Shown: piece after piece, positions 17,990 through 24,760 of the stretch | How positions within the stretch are numbered: the first letter of the stretch is position 1 | Layout of the letters: each line of letters begins with the position of its first letter | Source: Rubrobacter sp. | GTDB taxonomy: Bacteria; Chloroflexota; Chloroflexia; Thermobaculales; Thermobaculaceae | NCBI GenBank assembly: GCA_016781735.1 | Contig: JADDPT010000072.1 | Coordinates: 1-51,777, forward strand | Reading direction: 5' to 3' | DNA: 51,777 bases | Position numbers and translations under genes: made by a program | The notes under the pieces: model-generated | Databases searched by the model: none | What the model saw: the letters and a program-made list of their open reading frames with translations, nothing else | What the model was told of the DNA's origin: nothing

Positions 17990-19756
17990 CTATCTCGCTA
18001 CGGCGCCCGCCGACGCGCGGCCGGGGGCGAGGATGAATGGCTCGGATCGAGCGTGCTTAGGAGCGTCCTGCAGGCTGCAAACGCCGGCACGACATTTCTT
18101 CTCTACAACATGTTCGAGATACTCGTCACGGTAGTGCTTGAGAGTGCTCAGAATAGGGACCGGTGCCGCCTGGCCCAGTCCGCACAGCGAGTACGCGATT
18201 ATGTCGTCGCTGGATCGGACGAGCCGCTCCAGATCGCGCTCCGTCGCCGCTCCTCTCTTGATCGACTCGAGCATCGCCAGCTGACTGGCGGTGCCCACCC
18301 GGCACGGTACGCACTTGCCGCACGACTCGTCGCGGTTGAAGCGGGTGCAGTACCATGCAAGGTCCACCATGCAGGTGCCCTCGTCATATATAAGGTAACC
18401 ACCCGACCCCATCATGGAACCCTCGGCCTCGAGCGAGCCAAACTCGTTGGGCAGGTCGAGCGCGCTCTCCGGCAATGCGCCGCCGGAGATTCCACCCGCG
18501 AGCACGCTACGGAACTTCGCGCCGTTCTTCATTCCACCACCCACAACGAAGATGAGGTCGCGGAGAGAGATGCCCATCTCGTGTTCGCTGAGACAGACGT
18601 TCGCCACGTCACCCGCGAGGCTGAACACCTTCGTGCCCGTGCTCTTCTCTGTCCCGAGGCTGCTAAACCATTCCCCGCCACGCTTGATCACGTGCGGCAT
18701 GTTGCACAGAGTCTCGGTGTTGTTCACGACGGTCGGCTTGCCCCACATCCCTGCCTCCGCCGAGCGAGGCGGCTTTGTGCGAGGCATCCCCCTGCCGCCT
18801 TGCAGACCGTAGATGGCGGCCGACGCCTCGCCCGATATGTACGCGCCGGCTCCCGGCACGACCCGTACATCAAAGGAGAAGTCCGTGCCGAGGATGTTCG
18901 AGTCGAGCAGGCCAATCTCCTTCAGCTTGTTGACGGCGTTCTCCATGCGGCTGATGGCCAGCGGGTACTCCGATCCGATGTAGATGTACCCGGTCTGGCT
19001 GCCGACGGCGTAGCCCGCGATCATCACACCTTCGACGACCGCGAATGGGTCTCCCTCCATCAGCCTGCGGTCCTTGAAAACGTTTGGCTCGCCCTCGTGA
19101 GAGTTGACTATGATGTACTTCGGCCGGTTCCTCTCGCCTAGCGCGCTCTCCCACTTGATGCCCGCCGGGAAGCCTGCGCCACCTCGACCGCGTACGGTCG
19201 CGGTCTTCACCTCGGCTATCACCTCCTGCTGGCTCATCTGGAGCAGAGCCTTCGTGAAGCCCGCGAAGCCTCCAAGAGCTACGTAGTCCTCGAGGCGCTC
19301 AGGATCCTGCCAGCCGCACTTCGCAAGGAGCAGCCGCTTCTGTAGCCTGAACCAATCTGTGGATGTAAGCGGGCGGATGTCACCGTAGAGACCTTCCCCG
19401 AAGTGGGCGTACGCCAGGTCGGCACGCGGGTCGTCGCCAATAAGGTAGCTCTGCAGCAGGTCTTCAACCTTATCGGCGGTAACGTGACGGTACATCACGC
19501 GCGGCCTGCCGGGCTTCAGTATGTCAACTACCGGCTCGAGCCATGTGGCCCCAAAGGAAGCCGTCTGGCGGACCTGTGCCTTGATACCCCGCTCCTCGAC
19601 GACACGTCTGAGTTCTCGCAGCGTATCGAGCGCGCCTGATGCTACTGCGCCGCTGTCGGTGCTCACCCATATCGTCGCGGCCTGCTGAGGCTCCACGACA
19701 TCCTTCCAGGCATTAGCGGCTCGCCGTCCGTACTCCTGCCATTGTTGTGGGGTCAT
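17990..19756 (-). CDS. nuoF: NADH-quinone oxidoreductase subunit F with N-terminal thioredoxin-like extension
   Basis: 588-aa; 'GRGGAGFPAGIKW', 'NSHEGEPNVFKDRRLMEGDP', 'ESCGKCVPCRVG'; about 110-aa N-terminal extension resembling the Trx-like [2Fe-2S] domain. Confidence 0.95.
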   Translation of the reverse strand: MTPQQWQEYGRRAANAWKDVVEPQQAATIWVSTDSGAVASGALDTLRELRRVVEERGIKAQVRQTASFGATWLEPVVDILKPGRPRVMYRHVTADKVEDLLQSYLIGDDPRADLAYAHFGEGLYGDIRPLTSTDWFRLQKRLLLAKCGWQDPERLEDYVALGGFAGFTKALLQMSQQEVIAEVKTATVRGRGGAGFPAGIKWESALGERNRPKYIIVNSHEGEPNVFKDRRLMEGDPFAVVEGVMIAGYAVGSQTGYIYIGSEYPLAISRMENAVNKLKEIGLLDSNILGTDFSFDVRVVPGAGAYISGEASAAIYGLQGGRGMPRTKPPRSAEAGMWGKPTVVNNTETLCNMPHVIKRGGEWFSSLGTEKSTGTKVFSLAGDVANVCLSEHEMGISLRDLIFVVGGGMKNGAKFRSVLAGGISGGALPESALDLPNEFGSLEAEGSMMGSGGYLIYDEGTCMVDLAWYCTRFNRDESCGKCVPCRVGTASQLAMLESIKRGAATERDLERLVRSSDDIIAYSLCGLGQAAPVPILSTLKHYRDEYLEHVVEKKCRAGVCSLQDAPKHARSEPFILAPGRASAGAVAR

Positions 19757-19769
19757 GCCGCGGCTCCTA

Positions 19770-20273
19770 TCAATGCTCGTTCGCCGGTGAGTGACGCACT
19801 GTCTCGGCCACCTGCTCTGCGGTCAGCGGCCCTCTTATCTTGTGATTGACCTCCACCAGTGGGGCCAGGTGGCAAGCCCCATAGCAGAAGTCCGCCCTCG
19901 AGACCGTCCATGCTCCGTCAGGTGTGGTCTCGTTGTACTGTATGTTGAGGGCATCCAGGGCGGCGGCCGCCAAATCCGTGGCTCCCATGAAGTAACAGGC
20001 CGCGCCCTCGCAGATCGACATCCTGTTCCTGCCCAGGGGCTCGGCGGTGAAGTCGGCGTAGAAGGTAACGACCCCGAAGATGTCGGTCATGGGAATGTGC
20101 CAGCAATCGCTGATGATTTCAGCAGCCCCCTCCGGGATGTACCTGTACTCATCCTGCACGTAGTGGAGCAGCGGTATCAGAGACTCCATAGGGTCCCTGC
20201 CCTCGAAGCGCTGCATCATCGCGCCGAGCTTGCGCAGGTCCTCCTGAGTACCGTTCCACGTCTCGCGCACCAT
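19770..20273 (-). CDS. nuoE: NADH-quinone oxidoreductase subunit E
   Basis: 'MVRETWNGTQEDLRKLGAMMQRF...'; [2Fe-2S] ligands 'CEGAAC' and 'CYGAC'. The start at 20273 is preferred because the longer ORF (20435) runs into nuoD. Confidence 0.93.
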   Translation of the reverse strand: MVRETWNGTQEDLRKLGAMMQRFEGRDPMESLIPLLHYVQDEYRYIPEGAAEIISDCWHIPMTDIFGVVTFYADFTAEPLGRNRMSICEGAACYFMGATDLAAAALDALNIQYNETTPDGAWTVSRADFCYGACHLAPLVEVNHKIRGPLTAEQVAETVRHSPANEH

Positions 20274-20283
20274 CACTGCCAGC

Positions 20284-21486
20284 CTACCTGTCCACTTCAC
20301 CCAGAACGATGTCCAGGCTGCCGATGACGGCCACGACATCCTGCACGGGACGGTTCTCGCACATGAGAGGTAGCGCCGCGAGGTTGTAGTAGCTTGGCGC
20401 CCGCACGTGCATCCTGTATGCCTTCGAGTCACCATCGCTCACGATGTAGTAGCCGAGCTCCCCCTTCGGACCCTCGACCGCCTTGTACACCTCACCCGGA
20501 GGCGCCTTATAACCATGTATCGTCAGAACGAAATGCCGGGTCTGTCCTTCAATCGACGTCATCGCGTCCACCTTGCTGGGAAGCACGTAGTCCGGCAGCT
20601 CAGCCACCCACGGCCCCTCCGGCATCTGGTCGAGTGCTTGGCGCAGTATCCGCAGGCTCTGGCGCATCTCCGCCACGCGGACTTGATAGCGGGAAAATAC
20701 ATCGCCTTCCGTGGCGAGCGGCACATCGAACTCCAGCCGGTCGTATACCTGGTACGGCCTCGCCCTCCGCACGTCGTAGTTCACGCCACTGCCACGAACG
20801 CACGGACCGGTGAGCCCGAGGCTGACGGCGTCCTCCGGCGAGACCACGCCGACGCCCTGCGTACGTCGGATCCAGATAGGGTTCTCCGTCAGCAGGTTCT
20901 CGTACTCATCGATCCTTTCGGGCATGATCCCCAGAAAGTCCTCGAGCATCTGCACCCAACCTTCAGGCAGCTCGGCAGGCATACCTCCGACACGCATCAT
21001 GCTGGTGGTTAGTCGGGCACCGCAGTACTTCTCGAACATGTCGTTGATCAGCTCGCGCTCCCTGAAGCAGTACAGGAAAAGGCTCAAAGCCCCTATATCC
21101 AGGGCGTGCGTGCCCAGCCACACCAGGTGGCTCGCGATGCGTGCGAGCTCTGCCATCAACACGCGCATATACCGAGCGCGGTCCGGAACGTCCTCCTCGA
21201 TCCCGAGCAGCTTCTCCACTGCCTGCACATACCCGAGGTTATTCGATGGAGCGGCGAGGTAGTCCATCCTGTCGGTGTAGGGAAGAGTCTGGTAGTACTT
21301 ACGGACCTCCGCCAGCTTTTCCGTCCCCCGGTGCAGGTAGCCGATGTAGGGCACTGCCTTGCGCACGTTCTCGCCGTTGAGATTAAGCACTACGCGAAGG
21401 ACACCATGGGTGCTCGGGTGCTGCGGCCCCATGTTGAGCACCATCTCCTGCTCTTGAAGATCGTGTATGTCGTACCTGGCGCTCAT
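20284..21486 (-). CDS. nuoD: NADH-quinone oxidoreductase subunit D
   Basis: 400-aa; 'NMGPQHPSTHGVLRVVLNLNGE', 'YLHRGTEKL', 'DIVLGEVDR' C-terminus. Confidence 0.97.
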   Translation of the reverse strand: MSARYDIHDLQEQEMVLNMGPQHPSTHGVLRVVLNLNGENVRKAVPYIGYLHRGTEKLAEVRKYYQTLPYTDRMDYLAAPSNNLGYVQAVEKLLGIEEDVPDRARYMRVLMAELARIASHLVWLGTHALDIGALSLFLYCFRERELINDMFEKYCGARLTTSMMRVGGMPAELPEGWVQMLEDFLGIMPERIDEYENLLTENPIWIRRTQGVGVVSPEDAVSLGLTGPCVRGSGVNYDVRRARPYQVYDRLEFDVPLATEGDVFSRYQVRVAEMRQSLRILRQALDQMPEGPWVAELPDYVLPSKVDAMTSIEGQTRHFVLTIHGYKAPPGEVYKAVEGPKGELGYYIVSDGDSKAYRMHVRAPSYYNLAALPLMCENRPVQDVVAVIGSLDIVLGEVDR

Positions 21487-21501
21487 ACTGCTACCAGCCT
21501 T

Positions 21502-22014
21502 CTAGCGGAAAGGGACGTTATCGGCCGCCCAGATGCCGTAACCACCGATCGCGAAGTCCTTGCGCAGCGGGAAACCGTCCTCCCAGTCTTCCGGCAGTAG
21601 GATGCGGCGGAGGTCGGGATGTCCGGCGAAGTTGATGCCGAACATGTCGTACGTCTCCCTCTCGCCCCAGTTCGCCAGCATGTAGACCTCCGCGAGAGAG
21701 TCCACAGGTTGCCGGTCCTCGACGCGTATCTTGACGCGGAGCATGTCGTTGCGGGAGATGCTGAACAGATGGTACACCACGTCGAAGCGCGGCTCACGGT
21801 GCAGCCAGTCGACGGCTGTTACATCAACTAGGTAGTCAAACCGTAGCTCCGGGTCGTCACGCAGCAGGCGGCACACCTCGACGATACGCTCAGCAGCTAC
21901 TACGACGGTGGTGTCACCGCGATGCACGCCTACCTCGACAACGGCGTCCGGGAGAGCGTCACGGAGGCGCGTGACCGCCAAGCCAGGGTCTGCCTGCCCA
22001 TCCTCGGTGCTCAT
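21502..22014 (-). CDS. nuoC: NADH-quinone oxidoreductase subunit C
   Basis: 170-aa; '[41 protein letters not shown]'. Confidence 0.96.
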
Positions 22015-22547
22015 ACGCCGCTACCTGCGGTGTGCAGGTGATCGGACTCCAGCTCGGGCGCCGGCTCCAAAGGCGTCTCCTTCACCTGGCGGTCGCCACG
22101 CTGGATCATCCGCTGCAGCTCCAGGATGCCGTAGAAGAGAGCCTCCGGGATTGGCGGGCAGCCGGGCACATACACGTCCACCGGTACTACCTTATCCACG
22201 CCCTGAAGGTGGCTGTACGTTGGGTACGGCCCCCCGGCGGTGGCGCACGAGCCCATCGAGATCACCCACTTTGGTTCTGGCATCTGGTCGTACAACCTGC
22301 GCAGCACCGGCGCCATCTTCAGCGTCACCGAGCCGGAGACGATCATCAGGTCGGATTGCCGAGGAGATGCGCGGAAGAGCATTCCGGAGCGCTCCATGAT
22401 GTCGAACCGGGCGGCGCTGGCAGCCATCATCTCGATAGCGCAGCACGCCAGTCCGAAGGTCATCGGCCAAAGGCTACTCTTGCGCGCCCACCCAAAGATG
22501 ATCCGGCGCGTGTTCTCGATCAGGTTGGGGTCGTTCTTGTCGCTCAT
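22011..22547 (-). CDS. nuoB: NADH-quinone oxidoreductase subunit B
   Basis: 178-aa; '[17 protein letters not shown]', '[14 protein letters not shown]', '[19 protein letters not shown]'. Confidence 0.97.
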
Positions 22548-22900
22548 TTCCAGTCAAGCGCTCCTTTGCGCCAGGCATACGCATACGCGACCAGCAGCAG
22601 GGCGATGAAAAGCATCATCTCTATCAGGCCGTAAATTCCGATGCGGCCCGCCACGACGGCCCAGGGATACAGGAAGACCGCTTCGATGTCGAACAGCACG
22701 AAGAGCATGGCGATGGTGTAGTAGGAGATATCGAAGCGCTGCTGCGCCTCGCCAGTGGGCTGCACGCCGCTCTCGTAAGTCTCGGCCTTGATGGGGTTGG
22801 GTTTGTTCGGTGCTAGCAGGCGGCTGAGCGCGAGGGAAACGACGGCGAAGCCGATTACCAACACGAAGAGGATCGCCACCGGGATGTAGCTGGAAACCAC
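22544..22900 (-). CDS. nuoA: NADH-quinone oxidoreductase subunit A
   Basis: 118-aa; '[45 protein letters not shown]'. Confidence 0.96.
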
Positions 22901-22972: not shown

Positions 22973-22990
22973 TTGTGTATTATATCACAA
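22973..22990. promoter_or_regulatory. Rex-type (or CRP/FNR-like) operator overlapping a nuo -10 element
   Basis: TTGTGT-ATTATA-TCACAA, a near-perfect 18-bp inverted repeat (Rex consensus TTGTGA-N6-TCACAA). The minus strand reads TTGTGATATAATACACAA, with TATAAT inside the operator, 73 bp upstream of nuoA. Confidence 0.6.
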
Positions 22991-23118: not shown

Positions 23119-23625
23119 ATGGACAGGTTGTGGAGCCCTTGGCGCTCCGAATACGTTTCAAACGATCCCGCCGCTTCAGAGGGCTGCATATTCTGCGAGT
23201 TCCCTCGGCGGCAGGACGACGCCGCGAATCTCATCGCCTACAGGGGTGAGCACGCATACGTGGTCATGAACCGCTTCCCGTACAACCCCGGCCACCTGAT
23301 GATAGTTCCGTACCAGCACGGATCGGAGCCGCAGGCGCTTCCACCCGAGACATCGGCTGAGCTGATGCACCTTCTGAACCGGTGCCTGACCGGTCTCGCT
23401 CAAAGCTACTCGCCGGACGGATATAACGTCGGCATGAACCTCGGGGCTGCCGCAGGGGCAGGTATCGCGGACCACCTCCACGTGCACGTCGTGCCAAGGT
23501 GGAACGGAGACACGAACTTCATGGCTACCGTGGGCGATATAAAGGTGATCCCGGAGCGTCTTCAGCAGAGTTACGAGACGCTAGCCGCAGCGCTGCGCGA
23601 GGAAACAACTGGTGGAAGCGTCTAG
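23119..23625 (+). CDS. HIT family (histidine triad) hydrolase/AP4A phosphorylase-like
   Basis: 'MDRLWSPWRSEYV', 'CIFCEFPRR', 'GIADHLHVHVVPRW' (HxHxH); ATG at 23119 preferred over the 22918 ORF start. Confidence 0.92.
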   Translation: MDRLWSPWRSEYVSNDPAASEGCIFCEFPRRQDDAANLIAYRGEHAYVVMNRFPYNPGHLMIVPYQHGSEPQALPPETSAELMHLLNRCLTGLAQSYSPDGYNVGMNLGAAAGAGIADHLHVHVVPRWNGDTNFMATVGDIKVIPERLQQSYETLAAALREETTGGSV

Positions 23626-24760
23626 CGGAAACCACAATCAGGAGCTACTCGCGCTCATTACGGAGAAAGCACGGCGCGAGGGCGCCATAACCTTCGCACA
23701 GTACATGGGGCTCGCCCTGTATCACCCCCAGCTCGGCTACTATTCCCGCGCGGAGCCACGAATCGGTCCAGAGGGCGACTACTACACCAGCACTGACGTG
23801 TCTCCCCTGTTCGGCGCAACGATTGGCCGTCAGGTCCTTCAGATGTGGGAGCTGCTGCGGCGTCCAAGGCCGTTCCATGTCGTGGAGTATGGGGCAGGCA
23901 AGGGCCTGCTCGCGGCGGATTTGCTGGGATGGGCAGGCGCCGCTCACCCCGACCTGTTCGACGCCATCGAGTACATCGTAGTGGAGATTAGCGAGGGCCT
24001 TCGGGCTTACCAGCAGCAGAAGTTGGAGCGCTTGCCTGTCACGTGGGCCGAGCCGGGCTCGCTCCGCCCCGATACCATCACTGGCTGCCTGCTCTCGAAC
24101 GAGGTTGCGGACGCTCTGCCGGTCCACCGAGTCCGCTGTGTGGGCGGTCAACTGAGGGAGCTGTGGGTGGTGGCAGGAGAGCGAGGGCTAGGAGAAGAGC
24201 CCAGATCACTCTCCACACCGCTCCTGGCCACGTACCTCGATGAGCACGGCATCTCAATCAGGGAGGGCCAGACGGCCGAGATCAGCTTGGAGGCTAAACA
24301 GTGGATGCGGTCCCAGGTGCGAGCACTCAACAGGGGATGGGTGCTCACTGTGGACTACGGCGGACCTGCCGCCGAAGTGTACGGCCCTGCCCACCCTGAT
24401 GGCACTCTCGCCTGCTACTACCGGCACACCATGAACCGGGAGCCCTTCGCACGTGTCGGCGAACAGGACATCACCGCCCATGTCAACTTCTCCGCGCTCG
24501 CGAGGGCAGCGCGTGAGGAAGGAGGGCGAGTGGAGGGATTTACCTCGCAGGCATACTTCCTGGCCGCGCTCGGTCTGGGAGAGGCGCTGCATTGGTCGGC
24601 GGAGCGGGCAGCCTCCCAGGACGAGTTCGAGCGCGATCGGAACGCTGTCGAGGAGCTGATCCGGCCCGACGGGTTGGGGTCCTTCAAGGTCCTGCTCTGC
24701 TCGAAAGGCGTCGGCCCTCACCGGCTCACGGGCCTCTCGCTCGCCCGGCAGGAAGTGTGA
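23612..24760 (+). CDS. SAM-dependent methyltransferase, MidA/NDUFAF7 family
   Basis: 'GAITFAQYMGLALYHPQLGYY', 'GDYYTSTDVSPLFGATIGRQ', 'VVEYGAGKGLLAADLL', 'LLSNEVADALPVHRV'; GTG start overlaps HIT by 14 bp. Confidence 0.9.
   Translation: MEASSGNHNQELLALITEKARREGAITFAQYMGLALYHPQLGYYSRAEPRIGPEGDYYTSTDVSPLFGATIGRQVLQMWELLRRPRPFHVVEYGAGKGLLAADLLGWAGAAHPDLFDAIEYIVVEISEGLRAYQQQKLERLPVTWAEPGSLRPDTITGCLLSNEVADALPVHRVRCVGGQLRELWVVAGERGLGEEPRSLSTPLLATYLDEHGISIREGQTAEISLEAKQWMRSQVRALNRGWVLTVDYGGPAAEVYGPAHPDGTLACYYRHTMNREPFARVGEQDITAHVNFSALARAAREEGGRVEGFTSQAYFLAALGLGEALHWSAERAASQDEFERDRNAVEELIRPDGLGSFKVLLCSKGVGPHRLTGLSLARQEV

Follow-up and report, generated by a model that had tools for sequence, protein, structure and literature searches.

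The DNA analysed here, a 51.8-kb stretch referred to as the window, comes from a 1.9-Mb genome (G000) that is 78% complete; its host belongs to the Chloroflexota, class Chloroflexia, and is not an actinobacterium. The minus strand carries a complex I operon, opened by nuoA (22544..22900, with a GTG start at 22900; PF00507, 1.4e-38) and continued by nuoB, nuoC, nuoD, nuoE and nuoF (17990..22547; PF01058, PF00329, PF00346, PF01257 and PF01512). NuoF (17990-19756, minus strand) is 588 aa long and its 51K domain begins only at residue 183, preceded by an N-terminal extension. On the plus strand, in divergent orientation, lie a HIT-family gene (23119-23625; PF01230) and a gene for a MidA-type methyltransferase (23612-24760; PF02636).

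Between the two units, 72 nt upstream of nuoA, an 18-base palindrome, TTGTGTATTATATCACAA, occupies 22973-22990 on the minus strand; the nuo strand reads TTGTGATATAATACACAA, i.e., TTGTGA-TATAAT-ACACAA. The palindrome matches TTGTGA-N6-TCACAA, the pattern of the redox-sensing repressor Rex, at 11 of 12 half-site positions and the CRP/FNR core TGTGA-N6-TCACA at 9 of 10. The latter is the CRP consensus as well, and the motif by itself cannot separate Rex from CRP. The site forms an AT island, with 22% GC inside the palindrome and 64% and 61% in the two flanks. The first-pass annotation of this DNA had reported the sequence and its coordinates exactly, along with the 11/12 score, the AT-rich core and the proximity to the CRP/FNR motif.

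The operator spacer is filled exactly by a perfect TATAAT on the nuo strand (22984-22979), the probable -10 hexamer of the nuo promoter (22979..22984, minus strand), and the left half-site supplies TGA (22985..22987, minus strand) as an extended -10 element (TGn). A sigma-70 scan of the nuo upstream region found no -35/-10 pair, which is what an extended -10 promoter should show. Judged from this layout, a repressor seated on the palindrome would cover the nuo -10 itself, and the overlap proposed in the first-pass annotation is borne out: TATAAT is the spacer on the nuo strand here and in five family relatives.

The exact pattern TTGTG-N8-CACAA occurs once in the window, at 22973-22990. Of near-misses with up to two mismatches there are 9, where 12.5 would be expected; hence only the exact copy stands out. 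When the 250-nt region preceding nuoA is shuffled with its dinucleotides preserved, none of 2000 shuffles comes within one mismatch of TTGTGA-N6-TCACAA. Across the genome, 26 sites with up to two mismatches are found versus 12 for a reversed control; since this enrichment is only about twofold, the case must rest on position and conservation. Most of the other genomic sites examined at this threshold fall within coding frames. An 11/12 site on contig C136 was considered as an operator and set aside: it overlaps the prmC start and looks like chance. A further sequence, TCGTGATAACCGTCACTA (L153:3625-3642; G000:C110:4124-4141), is located some 0.4 kb ahead of a gene whose oxidoreductase-like product has a twin-arginine-type start and looks like a molybdopterin/formate dehydrogenase subunit; the sequence is a possible, weak candidate for a Rex or CRP/FNR site.

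The genome encodes one Rex protein, the homologue that the first-pass annotation had advised looking for. The gene (L001:997-1701, minus strand) specifies 234 aa with PF06971 (1.9e-16) and PF02629 (CoA_binding) domains and matches the NCBIfam model for Rex, the redox-sensing transcriptional repressor, at 1.1e-80. It adjoins uppP in the same order as in the relative G004, whose Rex is 62% identical; the shared order and this identity make contamination of the bin unlikely. The ternary complex of Thermotoga maritima Rex is the source of the DNA-contact residues (PMC8836258). By alignment, R27, S48, Q61, R63, S67, G73, G76 and Y79 agree with that Rex-DNA complex: the T. maritima contacts R12, S33, Q46, R48, S52, G58, G61 and Y64 are kept, and K49 is changed to R, K43 to T, R60 to Q and E34 to N. 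No site with up to two mismatches that would indicate autoregulation was found near rex (L080, L001 and the relative's L047).

Conservation in the family, another check proposed at the outset, favors a functional site. Five of six relatives (G001, G002, G004, G005 and G006) retain the nuoA operator, always on TATAAT: G004 has a 12/12 version, TTGTGATATAATTCACAA, and three others share TCGTGATATAATGCACAA, with little conservation of the surrounding bases. The exception is G003 (L023, G003:C180), which keeps TATAAT and the divergent HIT-midA pair and has lost the CACAA half of the palindrome. Joint loss of the operator and rex in G003 is ruled out by a rex fragment (residues 151-222, at least part of the gene) and a perfect atp site, both present despite the missing nuo site. 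In the relative G010, whose genome is only 83% complete, a nuo site with two mismatches is present and no rex was detected. In three genomes of family f3 (G019, G022 and G013; L026, L027 and L039), the nuoA locus has a palindrome-like but diverged TTGTTCCATAA(G/T)TAACGA, and a separate TATAAT lies just upstream of it; from their sequences, the operator and the -10 look uncoupled in this family.

A search for further TTGTGA-N6-TCACAA sites, also recommended by the first-pass annotation, leads to ATP synthase. A single site in the genome, TTGTGAAAAATCTCACAA (L077:7234-7251; G000:C4:19733-19750), scores 12/12; it is found some 75 nt ahead of the atpI start, and atpI is followed by atpB. Here TTGTGA stands 17 nt before TATATT, which makes a half-site coincide with the -35 position. 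Five of the six relatives (G001, G003, G004, G005 and G006) retain the atp site in the same layout, and overall the atp sites have TTGTGA 17-18 nt before TATACT or TATATT. G002 has the nuo site and none at atp.

The dependence of the site on rex was assessed in a sample of 121 Chloroflexota genomes, each 90% complete or better. A rex-type domain scores above the cut-off in 46 of them and a CRP-type HTH in 109, including most rex-negative genomes. Counting sites with up to two mismatches within 350 nt upstream of nuoA, among the upstream regions retrieved at loci that do not adjoin rex, 12 of 23 rex-positive genomes have the site versus none of 55 rex-negative ones; a control pattern in the same comparison gives 0 and 4 loci. 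In rex-negative genomes, nuoA was counted whether or not it was the leading gene of its operon, so that their number of sites may be an underestimate. In three other families (f21, f31 and f34; twelve genomes), nuoA directly follows a co-oriented rex gene (L270-L281, in G107, G149, G100, G068, G128, G114, G086, G142, G163, G121, G156 and G135), with the site either between the two genes (TTGTGAAAATGATCACAA, 12/12, in four genomes) or just before rex. Adding these twelve genomes, in which a longer stretch was searched and every counted site occupies one of the two positions just named, gives a site at nuo or the rex-nuo unit in 23 of 35 rex-positive and 0 of 55 rex-negative genomes. By family, the nuo site is present in 9 of 13 rex-positive and 0 of 25 rex-negative families (Fisher 4e-6, uncorrected for kinship). 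The occurrence of the site tracks rex, not CRP-type genes. Relatives of NuoA collected by a protein scan, mostly from outside the Chloroflexota, have 6 upstream sites at 80 loci, two of these sites belonging to already known Chloroflexota relatives; the site is thus not a general nuo feature.

These counts bear directly on the choice of regulator. A CRP/FNR-family dimer, responsive to a cyclic nucleotide or to redox state, could bind TGTGA-N6-TCACA and control nuo: the core is common to Rex and CRP, and among the CRP-type HTH genes of G000 two are strong matches and others weaker. Yet CRP-type HTH proteins occur in 109 of the 121 genomes, and none of the 55 rex-negative genomes has the nuoA site; the core is there, but its occurrence does not follow CRP/FNR-type genes. 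The genome G012 has an atp-type site and rex but no CRP-type match, a center on the -10 is unsuited to a CRP activator, and nuo together with atp is a Rex target pair (PMC5355995). Control by a CRP/FNR protein is therefore improbable. Rex is the best reading of 22973-22990 on the sequence evidence, because the nuo site is found in 23 of 35 rex-positive and no rex-negative genomes although CRP/FNR-type proteins are nearly universal. The palindrome might alternatively be an accident of an AT-rich extended -10 promoter that has no regulator. TGTGATATAAT is a good extended -10 alone, and this half might have been conserved for its role in the promoter only; but the CACAA half, needless for a promoter, is retained in all five relatives with the nuo operator, G003 keeps TATAAT while losing CACAA, occurrence depends on rex, and the atp palindrome is placed differently relative to its promoter. 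A bare promoter is accordingly the least credible account and scarcely to be believed.

The first-pass annotation had also suggested that the site may control both divergent units. Its location between divergent genes invites this idea, and the HIT-midA pair has this divergent orientation in G000, G001, G003, G005 and G006. The linkage is nevertheless broken both ways: G002 and G004 keep the operator without an adjoining HIT gene, and G003 has HIT-midA without the operator. Although a palindrome as such is undirected, a -10-like spacer hexamer points in the operon direction in 22 of 39 distinct nuo and atp sites and in reverse in 2 of 39, which favors an operator built into the promoter of the operon itself and argues against service to HIT-midA. 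A shared operator is unlikely, if less so than CRP/FNR control; the suggestion finds no support, because the site follows nuo and not HIT, and HIT-midA probably stands outside the circuit, as far as gene arrangement can tell.

Very probably, then, the palindrome is the operator through which Rex, an NAD(H)-sensing repressor, controls the nuo operon. The features seen directly are the sequence, the rex gene, conservation, rex-dependent occurrence, the atp site and the position on the -10: a Rex regulon member is recognized here by a rex gene, an 18-bp palindrome near TTGTGAA-N4-TTCACAA, overlap with (or contact to) the core promoter of a respiratory or NAD-cycling operon, and conservation that depends on rex. 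Binding, the NADH response, the transcription start and repression would follow established Rex biology (PMC8836258; PMC5355995). At low NADH/NAD+, an NAD+-bound Rex dimer would sit on TTGTGA-TATAAT-ACACAA and hide the extended -10 from RNA polymerase, keeping nuo repressed. When NADH rises, Rex would bind it and release the operator, allowing expression of nuo and, via its own site, of the atp operon. The redox control of complex I proposed in the first-pass annotation thus gains support from the rex gene, the five of six relatives and the 23/35 versus 0/55 distribution.

If this is true, the repressor and the polymerase read the same bases, the half-site serving as TGn and the spacer as the -10, so that one compact element is both operator and extended -10. 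The data provide evidence, open to testing, for Rex-mediated NADH/NAD+ control of complex I and ATP synthase in Chloroflexota, and predict that nuo and atp expression rises as NADH accumulates, e.g., upon oxygen limitation. The balance tips slightly toward a wider pattern of lineage-wide, promoter-embedded Rex control, in which the nuo and atp operators of Rex in Chloroflexota have fused more than once with an extended -10 (TTGTGA-TATAAT-nCACAA) and rex has in some families moved to a place immediately upstream of nuoA. Nothing specific on Rex in Chloroflexi or Thermobaculum was found in the literature. Rex control of nuo and atp is already known, and the Chloroflexota case is largely expected; what is added, modestly, is an operator embedded in the -10 and, in other Chloroflexota, the pairing of rex with nuo.

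The general Rex motif, TTGTGAANNNNTTCACAA, was derived for 11 taxonomic groups by Ravcheev et al. (as cited in PMC3441419); for Staphylococcus aureus Rex it is TTGTGAAW4TTCACAA. Compared with the general motif, the nuo palindrome shares 11 of 12 outer half-site positions and only partly matches the innermost A7 and T12 (T12 alone, on the nuo strand) because its spacer is TATAAT. CRP/FNR operators share the core TGTGA-N6-TCACA, whereas the site described here lies on the -10 and depends on rex rather than on CRP-type genes. The closest parallel is Streptomyces avermitilis, in which Rex binds and represses atpI and nuoA1, as documented by EMSA, ChIP, DNase footprinting and deletion, and its operators (ROP) lie between the -35 and -10 elements and cover the -35 (PMC5355995). 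The two systems have in common the repressor family, an 18-bp palindrome and two target operons, nuo and atp. The atp site of the Chloroflexota resembles the Streptomyces layout; by contrast, the nuo site, in a different phylum, lies on the -10, with the hexamer filling its spacer.
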